From: Eublepharis macularius
Lineage: Eukaryota; Chordata; Lepidosauria; Squamata; Eublepharidae
Direction: 5' to 3'
Length of the DNA stretch: 64,000 bases
Assembly (NCBI RefSeq): GCF_028583425.1
Contig: NC_072795.1
Location: 68,400,001-68,464,000, forward strand
Part shown: piece after piece, positions 6,290 through 58,599 of the stretch
How positions within the stretch are numbered: the stretch's first letter is position 1
Layout of the letters: each line of letters starts with the position of its first letter
The notes under the pieces: generated by a model
The model's input: only the letters and a program-made list of their open reading frames with translations
The model's database searches: none
Told to the model about the DNA's origin: nothing
Made by a program: the position numbers and the translations under genes

Positions 6290-9200
6290 TTGTGATTAGC
6301 ATTGCAATTGAAGAGAGCTAGTAGCTTGGACAAGCGGTGTGAGCAGCAGGGTGGTGGATGTGGAGAGTGGTCAGCATGGGGCCAGAGATCCCGGTCCTCT
6401 GGGGACGAGGGAGGTATGGCGGTGGGACCCAGGGAAGGATGAGAAGGACACGGAGATATGGTGAGGCTCGATGTCCTTCTAACCTGCGTCCTATCCCGAG
6501 GCATGTTGAGTGTGGAGCTAGGAAATATAGCCCCCCTTCGACACTGATGTTGTGTAATGCCAGGTCCATAAATAACAAGACCAGAACATTGCACGATTAT
6601 TTTGTGGCAAATGATGTTGACCTGGTATGCATGACTGAGACCTGGGTGAGGGAGGGTGAGACGGTTGCTCTGAATGAACTAGTCCCACCTGGGTTCTCAG
6701 TCCTTCATCAGTCCCGAACGGGAGGCTGGGGGGGAGGGGTGGCGATTCTTGTCTGAGAGTCTTTCTCCTTCAGGCCGCTCCCCATCCCAGAGATCTCCAG
6801 AATTGACAGTGTAGGTCTAGTGTGGGGTGCCGAGGAAAGTTTGGCCATCTGTGTGGTGTACCGGCCGCCCAGCGCACCACCAGATGCCCTGCCACATCTG
6901 CTAGAGGTGGCGGCTGGATGGGCCTTGGAACACTCAAAACTATTGGTATTGGGTGACTTCAACGTCCATGCTGACGATGACACCTCTAGTCGGGCTGTGG
7001 ACCTGGTGTCCTCCATGGCTGCACTCGGACTTTCCCAGATTGTTTCGGCCCCTACACATCAAGCAGGCCACATGCTGGATTTGATCTTTGGGATGGGGAT
7101 GGATGTGGTGCTAGAAACAACTGACTTGGTGCCATGGTCAGACCACGTGGTCCTGAAGGCTCGGCTGGATATCCCACCTCCCCCCTGCAAGGGCGGTGAG
7201 CTTATTTATGCTCGCCCGCGGAGACTTATGGATCCAATTGGTTTCCAGAATGCTCTGCAGAATCCGATGCTCCCTGGCGGCTCATTGGATGAGCTGGTGG
7301 AAGACTGGCAAGTCCGTCTTTCCGAAGCCATAGATGAAATCGCCCCCCGTCACCCTCTCCGCCCCTGTACCAAACTAGCTCCCTGGTATACAGAGGAGCT
7401 ATGTCGGAAGAAGTGGGAGCTGAGATGGCTAGAGCGAGTGTGGCGGCGGACTCGTGAGGCAAGAGCATCTTATAGGACGTTTATGAAGGCCTATGAGATG
7501 GCAGTGAAGTCTACAAAGAAAGAGTTCTATGCAGCCTCCATTGCATCAGCTAGCTCACGCCCAGCAAAACTGTTTAATGTGGTTCGGTCTCTGGTCTCCT
7601 TATCGGGAGGGGACCGTCAAAATTTAAATTCGGATATTAGCTGTGAGGCTTTTGGGAGCTTTTTTGCTGATAAAATTTTGTTTCTCCGCCGTGATCTCCC
7701 AGCCACAGTTGATACAGTGTGCGAACTGGAGGCCCCTTGGCTGCCTTCTGGGATGATATTAGACCATTTCAGTCCGCTCTCTGGGGATGAGATTGACAGG
7801 ATCCTGTGAGCAGTTAGGCCTACCACATGCTCCTTGGACCCGTGCCCTTCGTGGCTGGTGAAGGCCAGCGTAGATGGGCTACGGGATGCCCTGGAGGCCA
7901 TTGTCAACATGTCTCTGAGCTCTGGGATCTTCCCGGAAGCGTTGAAGGAAGCTGTGGTTAGGCCTCTCCTGAAAAAACCATCTTTGGATCCTACCGACCC
8001 GGTCAGTTACCGCCCAGTTTCGAACCTCCCGTTCCTGGGTAAGGTGATTGAGCGGGCGGTGGTAGAGCAGGTGCAGGTCTTCCTGAATGATTCCTCATCC
8101 CTAGATCCTTTCCAGTCGGGCTTCCGTCCAGGACATGGGACGGAGACATTGCTGGTCGCCTTGATGGACGATCTCCGTAGACAGCTGGACCAAGGCGGGT
8201 CGGCACTGCTGATATTATTAGATCTATCAGCGGCATTCGACACGGTCGATCATGACCTGTTAGTCCACCGCCTTGCTAATGTGGGGATTAGAGGGACAGC
8301 TCTGCAGTGGTTTGTCTCTTTTCTCCACAGTCGGGGACAGAGGGTGGCACTAGGGGAGAAGTTGTCATCCCGCCACCCGTTGGTGTGCAGTGTCCCTCAA
8401 GGGGCAATACTTTCCCCTCTGCTATTTAATGTATATATGCGCCCCCTCGCCCAGCTGGTACGGAGTTTCGGACTTGGGTGCCATCAATACGCAGATGACA
8501 CCCAATTGTATCTGATGATGGATGGACGGCCTGGCTCTGCCCCAGATGTCCTGGAACGTGCCTTCGGAGCTGTGACTGGATGGTTAAAGCAGAGTCGGCT
8601 GAGATTGAATCCCTTGAAGACGGAGGTCCTGCATGTGGGTCTAGGGTCCATGGGTGTGGGACTCCGGCTCCCTGCTCTCGACGGAGCGCTACTTACGCTG
8701 GTGTCGAGAGTGAGGAGCCTGGGTGTGGTCCTGGATGCTTCCTTGTCTATGGAGGCACAGGTTGCAGCGGTTGTTAGATCCTCTTTCTTCTATCTAAGAC
8801 AGGCTCGACAACTTGTCCCCTACCTATTGACCCATGACCTCAAAACAGTGATCCAGGCAACGGTCACCTCCAGATTAGACTACTGCAACTCACTCTATGT
8901 AGGGCTTCCCTTGGGCTTGATCCGGAAACTGCAGCTGGTTCAGAATGCAGCTGCACGGGTGGTTGCCGGAGCACCAGTTATGGCTCATGTAACACCTATC
9001 CTCCGTCAGCTGCACTGGTTACCGGTTGAGTACCGGGTCCGGTTCAAGGTTTTGGTGTTGACCTATAAAGCCCTATGTGGACTGGGCCCAGCATACCTTC
9101 GGGACTGCCTCTCCCCATATGTTCCCCGGAGGTCGCTTCGATCAGTCACTAAGAACATGCTGATGGTCCCTGGCCCCAGGGAGGTCCGCCTGGCCTCTAC

Positions 9201-9567
9201 CAGAGCCAGGGCCTTCTCAGTTCTGGCTCCGACCTGGTGGAACTCTCTGTCTGAGGAAACTAAGGCCCGGCAGGATTTGTTATCTTTCCGCCGGGCCTGC
9301 AAGATGGAGATATTCCACCGGGCATTTGGTGGGGGCTAGGCTGTCCTCTCGCTGGCCATACCACTGAAGACTCTCCACCACCCATGCAGGACAATGCTGC
9401 ATTTTAATATTTAATATTCTACACCCGCCAATTTTAATGGTTTTTTATATGATGTTTTAACGTTTTTATAATGTTTTTACTGTTTTAATTTGTTGTCAAA
9501 CCGCCCTGAGCCCGTCTGACGGGGAGGGCGGTCTAAAAATGTAATTAAATAAATTAAATAAATAAAT
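6290..9567 (+). mobile_element. L2-clade LINE, nearly intact
   Basis: A non-LTR retrotransposon with an apurinic-like endonuclease, a reverse transcriptase and a 3' region ending in 'ccgccctgagcccgtctgac', 'agggcgg' (a GC hairpin, about 9507-9532) and an AAATA-type tail to about 9567. The 5' boundary is not fixed; the coding part is recognisable from about 6546. There is no separate ORF1, so the element is probably 5'-truncated or of a one-ORF type. The match to the L2 group rests on the 'NLPFLGK', 'GFRPGHGTET' and 'AAFDTVDH' blocks; CR1 is the main alternative. The coding state is described under the pseudogene entry. Confidence 0.92.
6358..9339 (+). pseudogene. LINE endonuclease-reverse transcriptase polyprotein
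   Basis: One reading frame runs the whole length and is interrupted only by TGA at 6754-6756 and TGA at 7807-7809. Both could be CGA-to-TGA changes, the usual result of methylated CpG decay. The endonuclease part shows CNARSINNK (from about 6547), TETW and, after the first stop, VVYRPPS, GDFNVHADD and WSDHV. The reverse transcriptase part shows SYRPVSNLPFLGK, QSGFRPGHGTET, LDLSAAFDTVDH, SVPQGAILSPLLFNVY and the catalytic YADD (about 8489-8500). The C-terminal part has QNAAARVV and LHWLPV followed by WWNSL. So few lesions in about 1,000 codons point to a recent insertion. The protein would nick DNA and prime reverse transcription at the target. Confidence 0.93.
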
Positions 9568-16998: not shown

Positions 16999-17083
16999 AT
17001 GGGGAACAGCTTCTCCAGTATCCCAGCTTTGCCTCGGGGCAACCCCAGCCGGTTCCACAGAGTCCATCACCAGCATCTCAAAG
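16999..17083 (+). CDS. NEURL1: NEURL1 first coding exon (partial gene)
   Basis: ATG in a strong context (gtgccATGG) opens 28 codons beginning MGNSFSSIPALPRGNPSR and ending HHQHLK. One further base and a donor GTAAGA at 17084 follow. From memory, human NEURL1 begins MGNNFSSIPSLPRGNPSR and continues to NLK then D. The length and the phase-1 junction (AAA, then G to start an Asp codon) fit. NEURL1 is a RING-type E3 ubiquitin ligase with two neuralized (NHR) domains, acting on Notch ligands and, in neurons, on CPEB3; those parts lie in later exons not seen here. Gly2 with Ser6 fits the N-myristoylation pattern, so this exon would supply the membrane anchor. Reading through the donor gives only 12 more codons before a stop, as expected for intron. 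The 5' untranslated part probably extends leftward into 16.5-16.9 kb. Confidence 0.9.
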
Positions 17084-26815: not shown

Positions 26816-29715
26816 AGCTGTTGTTCCTTTTTGACCTCATTGTCACTGCTCACTTACTTGCTCTCTATCATGAAGAGGAGCATCATACTCACTTCGTCAC
26901 TCCTTGCCATAGAGAAGGAGGGAGAAAGAGCACACGAGCCACAGTAGTTCCTCTTTCTCTACCACCTCCTCTTAATTTCCATCATTCAATCTGTTACCAC
27001 AGTGAAAGAGTAGCATCTGTTGATGTTGCATACTTGCCCTCCATCATGGTGGTGGAGCTAGCTGGCAGCTGTTACTTCAGCTTCTTTCTTCCTTGTCTCC
27101 AGTAGCTTGATTTCCCCCACCACCAAAGTGAGGGAGCAGAGGAGGCCAAGGGAGCATCAGTGGTGCTTTGAAAGTTGGTAGTGGACATGCTCTTGCAATG
27201 TGAGCTCTGGCAGGTACTTGGCAATGCAGACTGCTCATGCTAGCCCATCACGCACACTGAGTGCGGAGTGTGTTCTAGGTGAGGTTAGTATACCAGCACC
27301 TCACACTAATTATGTGCAGTAGAACATTTCTCTAGATCGTCTGGAAAGTACAGAGGTTTTGTGGGTGATTGAAAGGGGTTCCTGTGCAGACAAATTGATG
27401 TAGAAAGCGTTGCTGAAGGTAGAAGCAGGGTAGACTTGGTAGCAAAATAACAGGTGCTGTTCAAGAAAAGGGACAAGGCTTGATATCTTCAGTATGAGTT
27501 GCTTATATTTATATAGTGCTTTGATTTTTGAACCCATTGATATGATATTTTACTCCAACTTCCCCTCCTCTTTTCTTTCATTTGTATTTATATTTTTTAC
27601 CTCAGAACTATCAGCGTTATCCAGGATGAACATACAAGGGAATAATAATTCCACCCCCCCCCCAGAGTTGAAATATGAACTTTGCTTTATTATTAACATA
27701 GGGATTCTTTCTTGCAAGGTTAACCATAAACACTACTGACAGAAAAAAAGTTCTTCACAACTGGGAAAATAGTTACTCATCGAATTACAGGGGAGTTTCC
27801 ATGTGTGGGAAAATTCAGGGCCTTGTGACAAATGAGGAACTAAATGACAGTGGAATATTTTGAGTGCAGTCCAAAGTGTGTTATATATTTCAGTGTGAGG
27901 TGGATTGCATTCCATAGATGTCAGACAGGTTGGGTTACAGTGAGGCATTGTGCTTATTTTGGTTGTCATAGACAGAGACTGTGTTCCATCTATTCTTTTA
28001 GCCATTTTAGAGTTCTTGGGGAGCTGAGGGAAATTATTTTCTGACTTCATGAAAGGCTTGGAGATTCAGAAGCAGTGAGAACCTGCAGCGCCATCTCCAA
28101 GGTTTTTTTTTGGGTGGGGGTTGGTCAGGGAAGTTGTCCTCAGTGGATCCTCCTCCATGAGTGGACCTAACTTCTTGCTGCTGCCCACTCATTTGCCCTT
28201 TCTTTCTGGGCCCTATAGTCACCCAGAGAAAGAGGTGGAGAACCCTTCCCCCCCTTGTGTTTTCTGGAACTTGGGAGAAATAAGGGGTCATTCACACCAT
28301 TTGTGCTATGTTTTGGAGGTGCCTGGAGTGGCAGAAGAGATACTGCTGCTTTTTAGTGTTTCCCGGGATAGAATGAAATGAGAGATGGACACTATCCTCA
28401 TTACTCCCCTGAAGATGCCAGAGGACTAAGGGGAAGGTATGGTTTTCTCTTCCACTCAGCACAAAATAAAAACCTCTAATTTCTCTGTGATATATAGAGA
28501 ATTTGGAGGAAGACGCTCTTGCCTAGTCCCCACTGGGATGAGAGTCTTGCATTTGTACAACCCAAAGCCTTGAATTGCTTCACTTGTATGTGTTTTTCTC
28601 TGTATATCCTCAGTCCTAGCTGGTTAAGAAGAGTTGAGGAACTGGAACCAGACCTTAGAAATTCCAGTTCCTCCTTTGTTAGTTTTCTGTTCAAACTTGT
28701 ACTTCCACATTTCCGTTACAGTAGTCTCCATTGTTAGTAAATAACACCCACCAAGTAAAAATGTATGTCATATTCCACCCCCCGCCTTTGCTGGTTTCAC
28801 TCCCTTTCACCCCTCAATATTTTATTTCAGCCTTTGGGTTTCAGCTTATTTTACTTGTGTTATTAGCACCACCACTGACATACATACAACATACATAGAA
28901 AAAGCCAGCCTTAAGGTAGTATGACCTTCCCTCAAGAGACTTGTTTTTTTCCCCCCTCAGGCTAGAAGTTAATTTCTAAGGGCTCTCTCTAAAATATCAG
29001 TTCCTTAATTATATTGCTTTTATTTACAGTACTTTACTTGTTTTTTTTCCTAAAAGCACCCAGAGCAGGTACTGGTTGATCCACGTAAAGGTTACTGAGA
29101 AAGAGTGTGATGCTGTTATTAAAGCAACCTAGTGTAGGAAAGGCTACATTTATAAGTCCAATATTTGAGTGGTGAAAAGAAAAATGCTAGAAAATTCATT
29201 CTTCTTGGGGAAATTGGACTATGAATCTCAGCCAGGTTTCTTACATGCTACAGTCATGCACAGACTGAGGAAACTTGAATTTTAAATATTGGTTTCAGGC
29301 CATACACACAAGTATGTGTCTATTTTGAAGCGTACAGAAGTAGAAGATTAGAGTAAAACTGGAAACACCCTAGATTAAAAAATTAATACCAAAAAAGCGC
29401 AAGTTCTGAGCTCTGAAAGTGGATTATATGAATTAATGTGTTTGCATAATTGTAGATGTATTTTATGGCAGGGCAGGAAAGGAGGGGGGCAAAGGGAGTG
29501 TAAGAGGTGGTGGACTGAGGAACAGCGAATTTTATATGGCACTAAAATCTTAACAAGTGCTCCATAGATATTTAAACTTCTTGTTTTGTAGTCATCATGA
29601 AGCAGCTCTGCTCCATCCTGAATAATCCCCAGAGACTGCACTTGAAAAAAGGCTAGAGGGCTTATACGATAGTAATTCCTGTTCTGGGGTTATTTTGCAT
29701 GTATACAGACACACC
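26816..29715. other. Intronic stretch, no gene seen
   Basis: Unremarkable, moderately AT-rich DNA. Several frames of 60-105 codons occur on both strands, but none shows a domain, signal peptide or splice context. Confidence 0.5.
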
Positions 29716-29730
29716 AAGATTGTCTCCCAG
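29716..29730. repeat. Left 15-bp direct repeat flanking the RMI2 copy
   Basis: aagattgtctcccag, identical to 30553-30567. It fits a target-site duplication made by LINE-type retroposition. Confidence 0.85.
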
Positions 29731-29775
29731 CATGAGGAGAAGCTGAATAACGGAATACGGAGGCAGGGAGTCCGA

Positions 29776-29793
29776 TTTCGCGGGAAGGAAGTG
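29776..29793. promoter_or_regulatory. E2F-like and ETS-like sites in the RMI2 leader
   Basis: 'tttcgcgggaa' (29776-29786) is a close match to an E2F site in either orientation and runs into 'ggaagtgg', an ETS core. These motifs are typical of S-phase DNA repair promoters. They lie about 50-65 bases before the start codon and inside the duplicated unit, so the copy may have brought promoter information with it. Confidence 0.5.
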
Positions 29794-29839
29794 GACGGGC
29801 TGAGGGGAAAAAGTGAAACAGGCAGGAAGGAGGAATGAC

Positions 29840-30259
29840 ATGATGTCAGAAGGCCTCTCTTTGCAGTCTCCACCAGTGAAGGTTCTGGCTGCACAGCTAC
29901 AACAGTGCTATCGGGACTGTGATGGTTTATGGCTGTTGGCTCGAAAAGAGTATGGACGGCCCGCATTGCCAGTTCCCCTGGTATGGATGCAGGGCACAAT
30001 ACTGACTGTGGACCAGGATGGCAAAGCGGTGAAGATGGAAGATGAAAGTGGCTCTTTCACGGTTCAGGGGGCAGACAAGGTCCCCAAAGGGCAGCCTTGC
30101 CTCAGTGCGGGGAAGTATGTGATGGTGATGGGACTGGTTCTGTCCTGTAGCCCAGAGCCCATCCTTCGAGCAGTGAAGATGACCGCTCTTACGGACAGTG
30201 TCTTGTATAGAAACATGTGGGGGCTGGAAGTGGAGGATTTACACAGAAATCTCCCTTAG
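29840..30259 (+). CDS. RMI2: RMI2, RecQ-mediated genome instability protein 2 (intronless)
   Basis: 139 codons, uninterrupted. RMI2 is the small OB-fold subunit that pairs with RMI1 in the BLM-TOP3A-RMI1-RMI2 complex, which dissolves double Holliday junctions and limits crossovers. Conserved blocks are SPPVKVLAAQL near the N-terminus, VWMQG (about residue 50), a GKYVMVMG strand (about 90-97), CSPEP and the C-terminal LEVEDLHRN tail, all close to human RMI2. Length is 139 against 147 residues in human, the difference being at the variable N-terminus. The start is ATG 29840 (ATG 29843 follows at once); the longer frame from 29813 begins with GTG and is not preferred. A two-codon upstream frame (ATG 29835, TGA 29841-29843) overlaps the start. 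Codons look selected rather than decayed, so the copy may be functional or very recent. Confidence 0.9.
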   Translation: MMSEGLSLQSPPVKVLAAQLQQCYRDCDGLWLLARKEYGRPALPVPLVWMQGTILTVDQDGKAVKMEDESGSFTVQGADKVPKGQPCLSAGKYVMVMGLVLSCSPEPILRAVKMTALTDSVLYRNMWGLEVEDLHRNLP

Positions 30260-30525
30260 TGGTGGAGGCTGCTTCAGTACGCTTGCTTTCCAAAGAAACT
30301 GAAGTGCTGAATAACCTTTTGATTTTGCCTTTGAAATAAATTTTAAACTTTTTCTTTGGAGAACTCGAATTAGCTGGAGAAATCCATCTACTTAAGTTAC
30401 TGTAGGAATTGAGAGCAGTGCGGACAGAGGAGTGCATTTTTGAATAGTGGACTATTTCCAGATAAGTCAATTTGGATAAAGCAGCATCAGTTTGTACAGT
30501 GGAAGACTGATTAAGAGTTGCCCCC

Positions 30526-30531
30526 AATAAA
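30526..30531 (+). terminator. Polyadenylation signal of the RMI2 copy
   Basis: AATAAA 267 bases after the stop codon and 21 bases before the end of the inserted unit. A second AATAAA-like hexamer lies nearer the stop (about 30335-30340, in 'tttgaaataaatttt'). Confidence 0.6.
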
Positions 30532-30552
30532 ATATCCAGTGGGGGGGGGGGA

Positions 30553-30567
30553 AAGATTGTCTCCCAG
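30553..30567. repeat. Right 15-bp direct repeat flanking the RMI2 copy
   Basis: aagattgtctcccag, identical to 29716-29730. Confidence 0.85.
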
Positions 30568-41703: not shown

Positions 41704-41942
41704 TTTTCCTGCCTCAGGGGAGAGCAGTAGGGTATAGGCTAGCTCTGCTACCCTGTCCTACTATTTACTCTTTACTCTTTATTCACCTTTTGTCTTTGCC
41801 TTTTCCCTTCCCACTTCAGCCTTAGAGTCTTACCTTTCCTTGTTCAGTCCCTTTCACTACTCTGTGCTATCTTCCTTCTTGGTCCATACCCTTATTCTTC
41901 CTTCCCTGCGGAGAGGAGTCCCCTACTCGCAGGGAGACCAGG

Positions 41943-43673
41943 ATGGCTACAAGGGAGTCTTCCGACTCTGAAGACTCTTTCATGGACAAAGCTGGAGACG
42001 GCTCCCTAGGACCAGTCCTTCCAGCGGCAGGGGACGATCCGGCGGGAACCGACGCGCCGCGGAGGCCTGATCGGTCCCCCGGGGAAGACTCTCCGAAGAG
42101 AGAACACCCTGCAACAAAGCGCCCTCGTCTGTCTTCACCCAAGCCAGAGAGGGCAGCGCGCCATGGAAAACGAAAGCAGACCGGCGAGATGGCGCGCGAC
42201 TCGATTTCGGCGGGAACGGCAGCCAGCCGCGACTTCCCGCCAAAACGCGGCAACGTGCTTCCCAACCTCCCGGCGGGAGAACTTGAGCACGGATCGGGGC
42301 CCTCGTCGCAGGATCTCAGTGCGATGCCTTCAGGAGCTCAAGTAAGTGATCCTTCTGAGGAGCTGTCGCCCCAGATCTTGGCTGCCATCAGGAGGTCCCT
42401 TAGAGAGGAGATCTGGGCCATTAGCCGGGGGCAGACTTCAGATCCTGATCGTTCTCAGCCCATACCAGACCAGCCTATTCCGGGTCCTTCTCACCAGAGA
42501 AGCACCTGGCCCACTAAGGCGGCCCGCAAACAATCTCTAGGCCCGACCACTAACAAGGTCTCGGCCTGCTATGATGAAGATCTCTCCCTCAGTGACATCT
42601 CAGAGGAGGGAGAATTTCTGTCGGAGGAGGAGCAGGAGTTAGACCCCACCACTGCCCAACCATCCAATAGGTTGTTCCAGCTGGAAGATTACCAATACCT
42701 ACTCTCCAAGACCCTTTCAGCCCTGGACCTCAAGGATCCATCTGAGGGAGAGGAGGAGAGAGAGGAGCCGAAGCCCTCGGGCCTCAAGGCTAGACCCAAA
42801 GGGAACAGGGAATTCTTCCCCAGGTCAGACGAGGGTCCCAAACTGTTCCCCTTCCCAGAATATTTCGAGCGCCAACTCAAGGCCGAGTGGCCCACTCCTG
42901 CAGCCACAAAACAGGTACCCAACTATATGAGAAAGTTATATGTCTTGCCTAACTTTGTGGACGAGCTCTTGCAGGTGCCTGTGATTGATGCCCCGGTGGC
43001 AGCGCTACAGTCTCAAGGTCTTCTCTCCGAGGACGGCCAAGGCAACATTCGAGACGGCCTGGATAAAAAAGGGGAAGCCGTGCTGAAGAGGGCACACGAA
43101 GCAATGGCTATTTCCATCAAAGCCTCGGCCATAGCCTCTATGGTATCCAGAGCCTCGGTGGTGTGGATCAGGAGGATGATCCAGCTGCTTCCCGAGAACA
43201 ACAGGAGGCTAGCGGAAGGAGCTAATAGGATCCTCAAAGCATCCACCTTCGTGGCGGATGCCACCTTGGACACCCTGTCCCTGACATCGAGGGCCATGGC
43301 ATCTACCGCGGTCTCTAGACGACTACTCTGGCTTAGAACCTGGCAGGCCGACATGCAAGCCAAGATTATCCTAGCATCTTACCCATTCCAAGGAGGGAAG
43401 CTATTTGGAGATCAGCTGGAAAAAATATTGATAGAAACCAAGGATAAGAAGAAGGCCCTCCCAAGGTCCCTAAAGTACACCTCCAGGAGACCAAGCAATT
43501 ACCAACCATTTTGCTCTCATCACACGTTGGCCAGAAACAGACAGGACCACAAGAGAGCCTGGAACCCTCCCAGGGGCCATCCCAAGCGGACTGGTTTTCA
43601 CTCCAAGTTCAACAGGTCTCAAGGATTCCGCGGCAACCGACAGGAATCCGACGATAAGGGTCAGAAGCCCTGA
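41943..43673 (+). CDS. DIRS gag-like ORF
   Basis: 576 codons from ATG in a good context. Acidic and serine-rich in the N-terminal half (SDSEDS near the start, then EEEQELD), with basic stretches (KRPR, KRKQ). DIRS first frames of this kind are assigned a structural, nucleic-acid-binding role by position. No zinc knuckle was noticed. Part of the element at 41582-47131. Confidence 0.8.
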   Translation: MATRESSDSEDSFMDKAGDGSLGPVLPAAGDDPAGTDAPRRPDRSPGEDSPKREHPATKRPRLSSPKPERAARHGKRKQTGEMARDSISAGTAASRDFPPKRGNVLPNLPAGELEHGSGPSSQDLSAMPSGAQVSDPSEELSPQILAAIRRSLREEIWAISRGQTSDPDRSQPIPDQPIPGPSHQRSTWPTKAARKQSLGPTTNKVSACYDEDLSLSDISEEGEFLSEEEQELDPTTAQPSNRLFQLEDYQYLLSKTLSALDLKDPSEGEEEREEPKPSGLKARPKGNREFFPRSDEGPKLFPFPEYFERQLKAEWPTPAATKQVPNYMRKLYVLPNFVDELLQVPVIDAPVAALQSQGLLSEDGQGNIRDGLDKKGEAVLKRAHEAMAISIKASAIASMVSRASVVWIRRMIQLLPENNRRLAEGANRILKASTFVADATLDTLSLTSRAMASTAVSRRLLWLRTWQADMQAKIILASYPFQGGKLFGDQLEKILIETKDKKKALPRSLKYTSRRPSNYQPFCSHHTLARNRQDHKRAWNPPRGHPKRTGFHSKFNRSQGFRGNRQESDDKGQKP

Positions 43674-43689
43674 CTATCACGACGCCCCG

Positions 43690-45603
43690 GTGAGGGGAAG
43701 ACTTCTCCTGTTCCGCAAGACCTGGGAGGAATCCGAGGCGGACGCATGGTCCTTAGAGATTGTGTCCAATGGTTACTTGATCGAGTTTGCCTCCCTTCCA
43801 CCGGAACGTTTTATTCCTTCCCCCCTCAAGAAGAATCAGTCCAGAAACCACATAACTCTGAAAGCGATCCAACACCTTTTGGACATACAGGCCATCGAAC
43901 CAGTGCCCCCTGCAGAGCAGGGGCGGGGAGTATATTCAATTTTCTTCACGGTTCCCAAGAGGAACGGGGACTGGCGTGCCATCCTCGACCTCAAATACGT
44001 CAATCGACATATCAAACTCAGGCACTTCCGAATGGAGACTCTTCGATCCATTGCCGAGGCATTGCAGGAAGGGGAGTTCCTGACCTCGATAGACCTGACA
44101 GAGGCGTATCTGCACGTTCCCGTCGCCGCACCACACCGACGGTTCCTCAGATTCTGCGTCAAGAAGGATCACTTTCAGTTCAGAGCACTTCCCTTCGGTC
44201 TGTCCACGGCCCCACGGGTATTCACCAAGCTCCTAGTGGTTCCCATTGTCAAATTACGGGAGAAGGGCATTCACGTGCACCCGTATCTGGACGACATTCT
44301 GATAAGATCCGCCTCCGAGTCCGATTCAATCAGGGAGACAATGTTCACCATTCAATTCCTACAGAGCCACGGCTTCTTGATAAATCAACACAAGTGCTCA
44401 CTGCGTCCTTCACAAAGACTCGAGCATCTGGGCCTGATGATAGACACAAAGAAGGGCAGCTTCTTCCTCCCGGAGGACAAGAGAGCCAAGACCAGGAAGC
44501 TTGCGTCACAGATAATCAGGAAACAGGCGTCTCCACTCATGGAACTCTCGAAGCTAATGGGTCTGCTCGTGGCCAGTTCAGAGGCCATCTACTGGGGCAA
44601 GTTCCACGCAAAGCCACTTCAGGCCTTCCTGCGCCCCTACCAATGGCAGATCGCCCAGAGATCGAACATCAAACTCCAGGTACCGAGCTCCGTGAAGGAA
44701 AGCCTGGGATGGTGGACAATCGACGGCAACCTTCGCCTAGGCAAGAGTTTTCTGTCACCAAAACTCACCCAACTCTTCACGGACGCCAGCCTGAAAGGCT
44801 GGGGAGCAACACTACACGACGTTCCTGCCCAAGGGGAGTGGTCAGAAACGGAACGGAGCCTACCCATCAACATCTTGGAGATGCGAGCAGTCTTCCTGGC
44901 ACTGAAACACTTCCGGAGTGCGCTCGACCGCGAGCACGTCCTGGTGCGGATGGACAACGTCGCCACCAAAACATATATAAACAAGCAGGGAGGGACCAAA
45001 TCGTCCCGACTCCAAAGGGATGCCCACAAAATTATGACCTGGGCGGAACACAATCTTTCCTCCATCAGAGCGGAGCACATCCGGGGGATCCAGAATATCC
45101 ACGCGGACTGGCTGAGCAGGGAGTCGCTCCAGCCAGGGGAGTGGTCACTGAAGAAGGAAGTATTTGCCTTGCTGACAGAGCACTTCGGAACCCCGGCAGT
45201 GGATCTCTTTGCCTCACACAGGAACAACCAGGTCCCACGTTTTTACACCAGATATTTCCATCCACAAGCGGAGGACACGGACGCACTCACTGCGTCCTGG
45301 CCCGACTCTCTGCTGTATGCCTTCCCTCCCTTACCAGTGATTCCGAAACTGTTAAGGAAGATCAGACAACTCGGAGCAACAGTCATCGTGATTGCTCCAT
45401 GGTGGCCCAGGCGACCGTGGTTCTCCACTCTCCAGCTGCTGTCAGTCTCACCACCGCTGCAACTACCGGTGCATCCGGACCTCCTACAGCAGGGCCCGAT
45501 CCGGCACCCTCATCCAGAATGGTGGGCGCTGACCGGATGGAAATTGAGAGGAACTTGCTCCAACGAGAAGGCCTTCCCCCGGGAGTCATCGACACATTGT
45601 TAG
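43690..45603 (+). CDS. DIRS reverse transcriptase-RNase H ORF
   Basis: 637 codons open. Reverse transcriptase motifs: FFTVPKRNGDWRAILDLK, SIDLTEAYLHVP, FRALPFGLSTAPRVF and the YLDD active site (HPYLDDILI). An RNase H-like region follows (FTDASLKGWGA, LEMRAVFLALKHF and VRMDN). This motif set separates DIRS from LINE enzymes. The frame overlaps the recombinase frame, an arrangement known for the DIRS group. Confidence 0.9.
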   Translation: MRGRLLLFRKTWEESEADAWSLEIVSNGYLIEFASLPPERFIPSPLKKNQSRNHITLKAIQHLLDIQAIEPVPPAEQGRGVYSIFFTVPKRNGDWRAILDLKYVNRHIKLRHFRMETLRSIAEALQEGEFLTSIDLTEAYLHVPVAAPHRRFLRFCVKKDHFQFRALPFGLSTAPRVFTKLLVVPIVKLREKGIHVHPYLDDILIRSASESDSIRETMFTIQFLQSHGFLINQHKCSLRPSQRLEHLGLMIDTKKGSFFLPEDKRAKTRKLASQIIRKQASPLMELSKLMGLLVASSEAIYWGKFHAKPLQAFLRPYQWQIAQRSNIKLQVPSSVKESLGWWTIDGNLRLGKSFLSPKLTQLFTDASLKGWGATLHDVPAQGEWSETERSLPINILEMRAVFLALKHFRSALDREHVLVRMDNVATKTYINKQGGTKSSRLQRDAHKIMTWAEHNLSSIRAEHIRGIQNIHADWLSRESLQPGEWSLKKEVFALLTEHFGTPAVDLFASHRNNQVPRFYTRYFHPQAEDTDALTASWPDSLLYAFPPLPVIPKLLRKIRQLGATVIVIAPWWPRRPWFSTLQLLSVSPPLQLPVHPDLLQQGPIRHPHPEWWALTGWKLRGTCSNEKAFPRESSTHC

Positions 45604-46613
45604 CGTCCCGAAAGAGCTCCACCATCCGCATATATAACTGTGCATGGAAAGCCTTCCATAGATGGTGCAGACGTAAGAAAGTGTCACCTCTGGATCCGAC
45701 TGTCCACTCCATTCTGGGGTTCCTGCAGGAGGGCCTCGACAAGGGACTTAGACCAGCCACCCTCAGGAGACAGGTTGCAGCCATAGGATCGGTCTGGACC
45801 AAAGACGGAGGAACCTCGCTAGCGTCTCACCCGCTCGTTAGGAGATTCCTCAGGGGGGCCACGCTGTTGAGACCCCCACCGGTCCATCATTTTCCTACTT
45901 GGAGACTCAACGTAGTACTCTCCGCCCTGACCAAACCACCATTCGAGCCGGTGAGAAGCGTATCCCTCAGATGGCTGCGGATCAAGACGATCTTTCTGGT
46001 CGCCATTACTTCGGCCCGCAGGGTATCGGAGTTGAGTGCCCTCTCGGCCCGTCCAGACCTGTGTGTCTTCCACAGGGATAAGGTGGTTTTGAGGACAGAC
46101 CCTATCTTTCTACCCAAGGCGTATTCCACTTTCCATCGTTCTCAAGAGATCAACTTGCCATCATTCTGCCCGAATCCCAAACACCGTAGGGAGCGAGAAT
46201 GGCACACTCTGGACGTGAGGAGGTCGCTCAAGGTGTACCTGATCAGAACGGAAGATATTCGACAGACGGACGCCTTGTTCATCAATATCTCACAACCAAA
46301 AAAGGGTCAACGCATGTCCGCCTCAGCGATCGCGTACAGTATTAGATCTTGTATTACGGAAGCCTACAAAGCACAGCGGATCGAAATACCAGCCGGAATA
46401 ACTGCCCACTCAACCAGAAGCGCAGCCACCAACGCAGCTCTGAGAAGGAGCGCCTCTGCGGAGGATATCTGCAAGGCGGCTACGTGGGCATCTTTAACTA
46501 CATTCATCAGACACTACCACCTCCACACCCGTGCCTCGGCGGACGCGGCCTTCGGGAGAAGAGTGCTTCAACATGTGGTGGAAGACGAAGATACACTCCC
46601 ACCCAGATCGTAA
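45540..46613 (+). CDS. DIRS tyrosine recombinase ORF (domain part)
   Basis: The open frame extends from 43746 to 46613; the recognisable recombinase occupies roughly the last 350 codons. It has a SAM-like N-terminal part (TIRIYNCAWKAFHRWC, GLRPATLRRQVAAI) and the catalytic set: Arg in TSARRVSEL, the HSTRSAAT box with His and Arg, and Tyr in RHYHLH. The enzyme would insert a circular DNA form. The start shown is where homology begins, not a proven start codon. Confidence 0.85.
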   Translation, partial: EIERNLLQREGLPPGVIDTLLASRKSSTIRIYNCAWKAFHRWCRRKKVSPLDPTVHSILGFLQEGLDKGLRPATLRRQVAAIGSVWTKDGGTSLASHPLVRRFLRGATLLRPPPVHHFPTWRLNVVLSALTKPPFEPVRSVSLRWLRIKTIFLVAITSARRVSELSALSARPDLCVFHRDKVVLRTDPIFLPKAYSTFHRSQEINLPSFCPNPKHRREREWHTLDVRRSLKVYLIRTEDIRQTDALFINISQPKKGQRMSASAIAYSIRSCITEAYKAQRIEIPAGITAHSTRSAATNAALRRSASAEDICKAATWASLTTFIRHYHLHTRASADAAFGRRVLQHVVEDEDTLPPRS

Positions 46614-57918: not shown

Positions 57919-58599
57919 CTAATAACAAAACCCGTTGTAGGAAAAAATACATTGGGCTCTAGAAAGGGGAGGGTGGGTAGATGGGCATTGCCTCCTTCTC
58001 TGTGACTGATCCCGGCCAGGTGAAGGTGGGGGGGGCAGACCTTGCCACCTGGTCTGCTTCTGATCCAGGCTGGGTGAAAGGAGGCAGGCATTGCCCCCTG
58101 CTCCACTATTGATCCCAGCCGGGTGAAGGGGGGGCGGGCATTGCTACCTGCTCTGCACCTGATCCCGGCCAGGTGAAGGGGGGGTCAGGCATTGCAACCT
58201 GCTCCACTTCTGATTCTGGCAGAGTGAAGGGGGGTGGGCATTGCCACCTGCTCTGCTCCTGCTCCTGGGTGGGTAAAGGTAGGGTGGGCATTACCGCCTG
58301 CTCCAATGCCCGGTTGGGTGAAGGGGGGCGGGCATTGCCACCTGCTCTGCACCTGATCCCAGCTAGGTGAATGCGTGGGGTGGGCATTGCCTCCTGCTCC
58401 TCATCTCATCCTGGCTGGGTGAAAGGGGGGGCAGGCATTGCCTCCTGCTCCGCACCTGATCCCAGCCTGGGCTTCCCACTGCAGTACACTGTCGGAGGGA
58501 TGAGCTGCCTCTTCTGGGCTTCCCTCCGCAGCAACGCCCTCTGGAGGTGCACCAGGAAGTGAGTTGTTTGTAACATGGTTAGCCTTTTATATAGTAGGA
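57919..58599 (-). mobile_element. Non-autonomous Helitron carrying a minisatellite
   Basis: On the minus strand it begins TCCTACTATATAAAAGGC and ends with a hairpin (AGCCCAATGTA ... TACAACGGGT) followed by TTTTGTTATTAG, close to the CTRR rule with one change in the last four bases. It lies between an A and a T with no target duplication, as Helitrons do. The interior is mostly the 50-bp tandem array at 57985-58472. No Rep/helicase frame is present. Confidence 0.75.
57985..58472. repeat. Minisatellite, about ten units of 44-54 bp
   Basis: Each unit starts 'gcattgccacctgctc' and ends with a '(g)gtgaaggggggcgg'-type G-rich stretch; units vary in sequence and length. The repetitive frames on both strands (58106-58387 minus, 58173-58562 plus) are products of the array, not proteins. 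Confidence 0.9.

Follow-up and report, generated by a model that had tools for sequence, protein, structure and literature searches.

Processed retrocopies are recognised by a set of hallmarks, as outlined in PMC7692494: introns are removed, the copy ends at the polyadenylation site, target-site duplications flank the insertion, and the location in the genome is new. Retrogene replacement has been described for amphioxus SYCP1, which is reported to have only one coding exon, together with 5' UTR exons and a bidirectional promoter that is shared (PMC5803294). Here we describe a processed copy of the RMI2 gene in Eublepharis macularius. The copy lies in a 64,000-nucleotide stretch of contig C6, referred to below as the window.

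RMI2 is a subunit of the BLM (Holliday-junction) dissolvasome, and the coding sequence of the human gene presumably has an intron. Human RMI2 exon 2 is described as carrying the C-terminal coding part (PMC5157948), and the human gene order is given as CLEC16A-SOCS1-TNP2-PRM2-PRM1-RMI2-LITAF (PMC4657880). A literature search returned nothing on RMI2 in connection with a retrocopy or a squamate, and the matches for RMI2 with lizard were unrelated by title. RMI2 was also absent among the matches listed for the gene together with retrogene, processed pseudogene or retroposed.

We are confident of the overall reading that an mRNA of the RMI2 gene on contig C14 gave rise to a retrocopy in an intron of NEURL1, and that this copy is young and probably unused; less certainly, the parent on C14 arose in its turn as a retrogene, at an earlier time. 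The feature is genuine and had been rightly identified from the letters of the window. The window copy is a further example of a known retrocopy type, and the interest lies in its C14 parent, which is probably an orphaned retrogene, and in an unexplained tail of G residues.

Structure of the RMI2 copy

The inserted DNA occupies window positions 29731-30552 on the plus strand, between exact 15-bp target-site duplications (AAGATTGTCTCCCAG) at 29716-29730 and 30553-30567. This is the direct repeat reported by the first-pass annotation, which was made from the letters of the window. Exact 15-mers recurring 300-2000 bp apart gave five rows at three places in the 64-kb window, and the RMI2 copy is one of the three. 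The inserted DNA aligns to the spliced C14 RMI2 transcript over 811 of its 822 bases. Positions 29731-29812 correspond to parental exon 1, which is 5' UTR (C14:57142261-57142180, minus strand; placed by BLASTN and splice sites), and positions 29813-30541 correspond to parental exon 2, which supplies the rest of the 5' UTR, the whole coding sequence and the 3' UTR (C14:57141395-57140667, minus strand).

The uninterrupted RMI2 frame noted in the first pass is open over 139 codons plus stop at 29840-30259, with its ATG at 29840 and its stop at 30257-30259; the program-listed ORF start at 29813 lies upstream of this ATG. The 139-aa product matches the Pfam RMI2 profile PF16100 (E=4.7e-38) and, at E of about 2e-41, the PDB chains of human RMI2. 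An AATAAA polyadenylation signal copied from the parent stands at 30526-30531, with the spacing of 21 bases before the right repeat that had been claimed. Beyond it, the inserted DNA ends in a tail of ten G and one A (G10+A, 30542-30552), which is not in the parent, where AAAAAATTATC is found instead; the first pass had made no mention of this tail. At the extreme 5' end of the copied 5' UTR, positions 29732-29746 hold a four-codon upstream ORF (ATGAGGAGAAGCTGA), and parent exon 1 has the same ORF.

The host gene had been named from an exon upstream of the copy on the same strand (16999-17083, plus), which is followed by the donor GTAAGA. We take this to be NEURL1 coding exon 1 from the human N-terminus, and a Pfam search found no domain in the exon 1 peptide. 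The naming agrees with Neuralized-domain exons that follow on the plus strand at C6:68544270, 68545587 and 68586392, the first at window coordinate of about 144,270. The copy is inserted in the sense direction; if no exon lies between, it sits about 12.6 kb inside an intron 1 of about 127 kb.

Source gene and mode of copying

A search of the animal's own genome (2.24 Gb, 72 contigs) found one other RMI2, on the minus strand of C14, in two blocks of 98-99% identity; a second RMI2 was among the things that the first-pass annotation had asked to be looked for. Exon 1 of this gene (57142261-57142180) is 5' UTR, and all of the coding sequence lies in exon 2 (57141395-57140667), as does the 3' UTR. 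The 784-bp GT-AG intron between them is exactly missing from the window copy, in which the exons are joined directly. Between the spliced parent and the copy, 800 of 811 bases are identical, with 11 mismatches and no indel. The homology to C14 is limited to the two exons and stops 10 bases past AATAAA, where the parent's genomic A6 starts. The multi-exon parent beside CLEC16A and SOCS1 that had been expected was not what was found; the parent instead has a torsin gene as its neighbour on C14, and one exon contains all of its coding sequence.

The window copy is an RNA-mediated copy of a spliced transcript, and we file it as processed because of the missing intron, its ends and the target-site duplications. 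The earlier proposal of an RMI2 mRNA copied by reverse transcription into the first intron of NEURL1 is thereby borne out, with a source gene elsewhere, an intron precisely lost and flanking duplications. A spliced mRNA of the C14 gene would have been made in the germ line and cleaved at the polyadenylation site. Target-primed reverse transcription would then have placed it in NEURL1 intron 1 on C6, leaving the 15-bp target-site duplication, and the copy would have arrived without a promoter. With LINE-mediated processed retrocopies it shares intron loss, an end at the polyadenylation site, target-site duplications (about 7-20 bp in the class, 15 here) and a new location; it differs in its tail, which is G10+A where the class has poly(A).

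The copy seems to be an ordinary young retrocopy, and it is chiefly useful as a fossil cDNA. Read in this way, it implies that germ-line transcription of the C14 gene started close to the CpG island of the torsin gene, that its 5' UTR intron was spliced, and that its transcript was cleaved at the mapped site.

Age and use of the copy

The K2P distance between copy and parent is 0.0137, a divergence of 1.4%. At an assumed substitution rate of 1e-9 per site per year, the copy would be roughly 7 million years old. Its coding sequence differs from that of the parent by seven substitutions, of which six are nonsynonymous (N7S by two bases, A44P, Q67E, R85Q and H123Y) and one is synonymous. From these seven changes only, dN is 0.019 and dS 0.010, and the probability of at least six nonsynonymous changes among seven is 0.35 under neutrality. 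This comparison, suggested in the first pass, gives no sign of constraint on what are few changes. When seven random substitutions were placed in the frame, it was still open in 71% of 20,000 simulations, which model substitutions only and no indels. Around the copy, CpG o/e is 0.17-0.39 over seven 300-bp steps, and there is no promoter island.

The first-pass annotation had left it that the frame stayed open either through recency or through use. Recency is supported by the divergence, by the simulations and by nonsynonymous changes that are not depleted, and no sign of use, or of a second RMI2 dose, was seen. Since randomly substituted frames stay open so often, the open frame is no evidence for use, and judged by its substitutions it is accounted for by youth with no selection needed. 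On the same sequence comparison, the copy is probably young, unused and evolving without constraint.

Two other explanations of the copy were weighed against this reading. The high identity of copy and parent would also suit a duplication that carried the C14 gene to C6 as DNA, with no RNA-mediated step, and nothing else speaks for one. The missing intron, taken out exactly at GT-AG, already contradicts such a duplication, as do the stop of homology 10 bases after AATAAA, the target-site duplications and the confinement of homology to two exons, so that we give it practically no credence. It is improbable, to a lesser degree, that the copy is a functional retrogene, transcribed within NEURL1 intron 1 and translated to add RMI2 protein or a variant of it. 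The six nonsynonymous changes among seven argue against this, and two of them, R85Q and H123Y, alter residues common to human RMI2 and the parent. Also against function are the low CpG o/e nearby, without a promoter island, and the openness of the frame, which is expected at the age of the copy. In favour of function, the frame is intact and in the sense orientation of the host gene, the Pfam RMI2 score of the copy is 130 bits compared with 134 bits for the parent, and the lysine aligned to human K121 is kept. A K121A mutant is used in PMC5167996, its numbering being assumed to be human.

The oligo(G) tail

The parent reads AATAAAATATCCAGTG and then AAAAAATTATC; the copy matches it through CCAGTG and continues with G10, A and the right repeat. 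In place of a 3' poly(A) tail the RMI2 copy thus has G10+A. Had the insertion been A-tailed, a copy of this youth should still show a run of A, and the G tail counts against retrocopying of the C14 mRNA, which is otherwise the best explanation. The consensus for the L1-type target nick is TTTT/AA, and the bottom-strand nick at the RMI2 copy, TCTT/GG, fits it poorly.

Two other retrocopies with target-site duplications served as controls for A tails. An RPL18A-type copy at C11:84.877 Mb (L068) has a duplication with 17 of 18 bases alike and a run of 9 A, and an RPL10-type copy at C10:76.956 Mb (L071) has a duplication of 14 bases and a run of 10 A; part of these A runs may belong to the duplications. 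The RPL18A-type copy also has an open frame of 173 codons. Several other candidates for controls were set aside: the GAPDH family (PF02800) and PF00687 gave partial matches only, a PF00252 match (L070) looks like what we take to be a mitochondrial L16 exon, and the duplication and tail of a further RPL10-type copy (L074) were unconvincing.

Across the genome, AATAAA followed after 10-25 bases by G10 gave 3691 raw (overlapping) matches and a backward control 3752, so that there was no excess. The same pattern with A12 gave 9445 matches vs 1150 in the control, and the matches listed, at about 100 places, were mostly repeat families. A flanking repeat of at least 10 bases was present at one of the 26 distinct AATAAA-G10 places tested, the RMI2 copy alone; for 20 of the other 25 places, it was searched for within 1.5 kb upstream only. 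These 25 comprise 24 on C1 among the matches listed, some of the same repeat families, and one on the minus strand of the window. In this limited sample of 26 places, the G tail is peculiar to the RMI2 insertion. Two further candidates for G-tailed copies were rejected. In a family with AATAAA...ACC-G10 (L035-L039) the sequence continues beyond the G run, which is therefore internal. For a possible second G-tailed copy at 27654-27691 on the minus strand of the window a parent was not found, with two short matches at 76-77% only.

Runs of at least 8 G or C occur at 13 places in the window and reach 14 bases, and runs of at least 8 A or T occur at 17. The G10 may have arisen through addition of untemplated C as reverse transcription began, through slippage once the copy was in place, or through an error of sequencing or assembly. 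The copy may or may not be of the strictly poly(A)-primed, L1-type kind. Since this young retrocopy is a textbook case in other respects, its G tail poses a small puzzle about the priming of such insertions.

Origin of the parent gene

The parent gene matters more than the window copy. Its exon 1 lies head-to-head with the torsin gene, 340 bp from the torsin ATG, inside a CpG island (C14:57138000-57146000, locus L004; also L084). At this promoter, the four 300-bp steps that cover L004:4001-4600 have a CpG o/e of 1.05-1.31. The torsin gene was called because it matches Pfam PF06309 (E=5e-36) and, among PDB entries, Torsin-1A; it is presumably TOR2A in particular. A six-frame PF16100 search of the genome, with E up to 10, found RMI2 at two places only, C14 and the window copy, and the domain is uninterrupted over profile positions 1-132 at both. 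A relative of RMI2 was not found in viral contigs.

The neighbours of human RMI2 appear to be elsewhere. An FPL-domain gene, which we take to be CLEC16A as in vertebrates, lies at C12:28.79 Mb on the plus strand, and LITAF-like domains lie 0.38 Mb from it at C12:29.18 Mb on the minus strand. Further LITAF-like matches occur at C12:29.57 Mb, C12:3.57 Mb and C1:164.98 Mb, and we infer that the gene at 29.18 Mb is LITAF from its distance and strand. On C12, between the FPL-domain and LITAF-like genes or elsewhere, the PF16100 search of the genome found no RMI2; a decayed ancestral gene on C12 is of the kind that such a domain search could miss.

We consider it likely that the C14 parent began as a retrogene at an earlier time and took the place of the ancestral gene, which would make the window copy a second-generation one. 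This reading is drawn by analogy with amphioxus SYCP1, which the C14 gene resembles in having its coding sequence in one exon apart from the former neighbours, together with a 5' UTR exon and the promoter of a neighbour. The weakest point of the reading is the presumed intron within the human coding sequence. An intronless RMI2 coding unit would have left the CLEC16A-LITAF neighbourhood and landed beside the torsin gene. There it would have gained a new 5' UTR exon and taken over the CpG-island promoter of the torsin gene, and it would have outlived the ancestral gene. By the account in PMC5803294, SYCP1 and C14 RMI2 have in common a single coding exon, a 5' UTR exon, a head-to-head neighbour with a promoter region that may be shared, and a multi-exon parent that is not found in the genome. 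The two differ in that the SYCP1 case is backed by other animals and by expression (PMC5803294), whereas C14 RMI2 is read in one genome. A repeat of 11 bp (AAAATTATCTT), noticed post hoc, occurs both at the polyadenylation site of the C14 gene and within its 5' UTR intron, and its left copy ends 468 bp upstream of exon 2. Its level was reached in 9 of 2000 shuffles and in none of 322 window pieces; it is a candidate for a remnant target-site duplication, on which we do not rely.

The C14 gene may instead be no retrogene, having moved to C14 by DNA rearrangement and separately lost its coding intron, or belonging to a lineage in which that intron never existed. We regard this as unlikely, while granting it some weight: the C14 gene does have an intron, albeit in the 5' UTR, and the position of the human coding intron is presumed. 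Against it, two independent events are required, the FPL-domain and LITAF-like genes are still together on C12, and retrogene replacement is on record for amphioxus SYCP1 with one coding exon, 5' UTR exons and a bidirectional promoter that is shared (PMC5803294). Somewhat more doubtful is a full series of RMI2 retropositions, in which a retrogene at the torsin promoter replaced the multi-exon gene and then seeded the oligo(G)-tailed copy by way of untemplated C addition. If a relocated retrogene has indeed taken the place of RMI2 among these reptiles, synteny-based annotation could overlook the gene and call RMI2 lost, and the regulation of RMI2 would have been rebuilt from the promoter of a neighbour.

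Other elements of the window and genome

The window contains several further elements. A non-LTR retrotransposon lies at 6343-9336 on the plus strand and has frames for an endonuclease and a reverse transcriptase; it is presumably CR1/L2-like, and a short tandem repeat follows it at 9444-9486. An element that is DIRS-like by domain content occupies 41826-46610 on the plus strand, with a LAP2alpha-like frame and a reverse transcriptase that has RNase H; its match to the tyrosine recombinases (phage integrase family) is weak. Elsewhere in the genome, two similar PF00252 (RPL10-type) exon sets lie 0.75 Mb apart in opposite orientation, at C19:22997326 (minus) and C19:23749370 (plus), as either an inverted duplication or an effect of assembly. 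A tandem array at window positions 57983-58471 has a 50-bp unit in about 10 copies with 73% matches.
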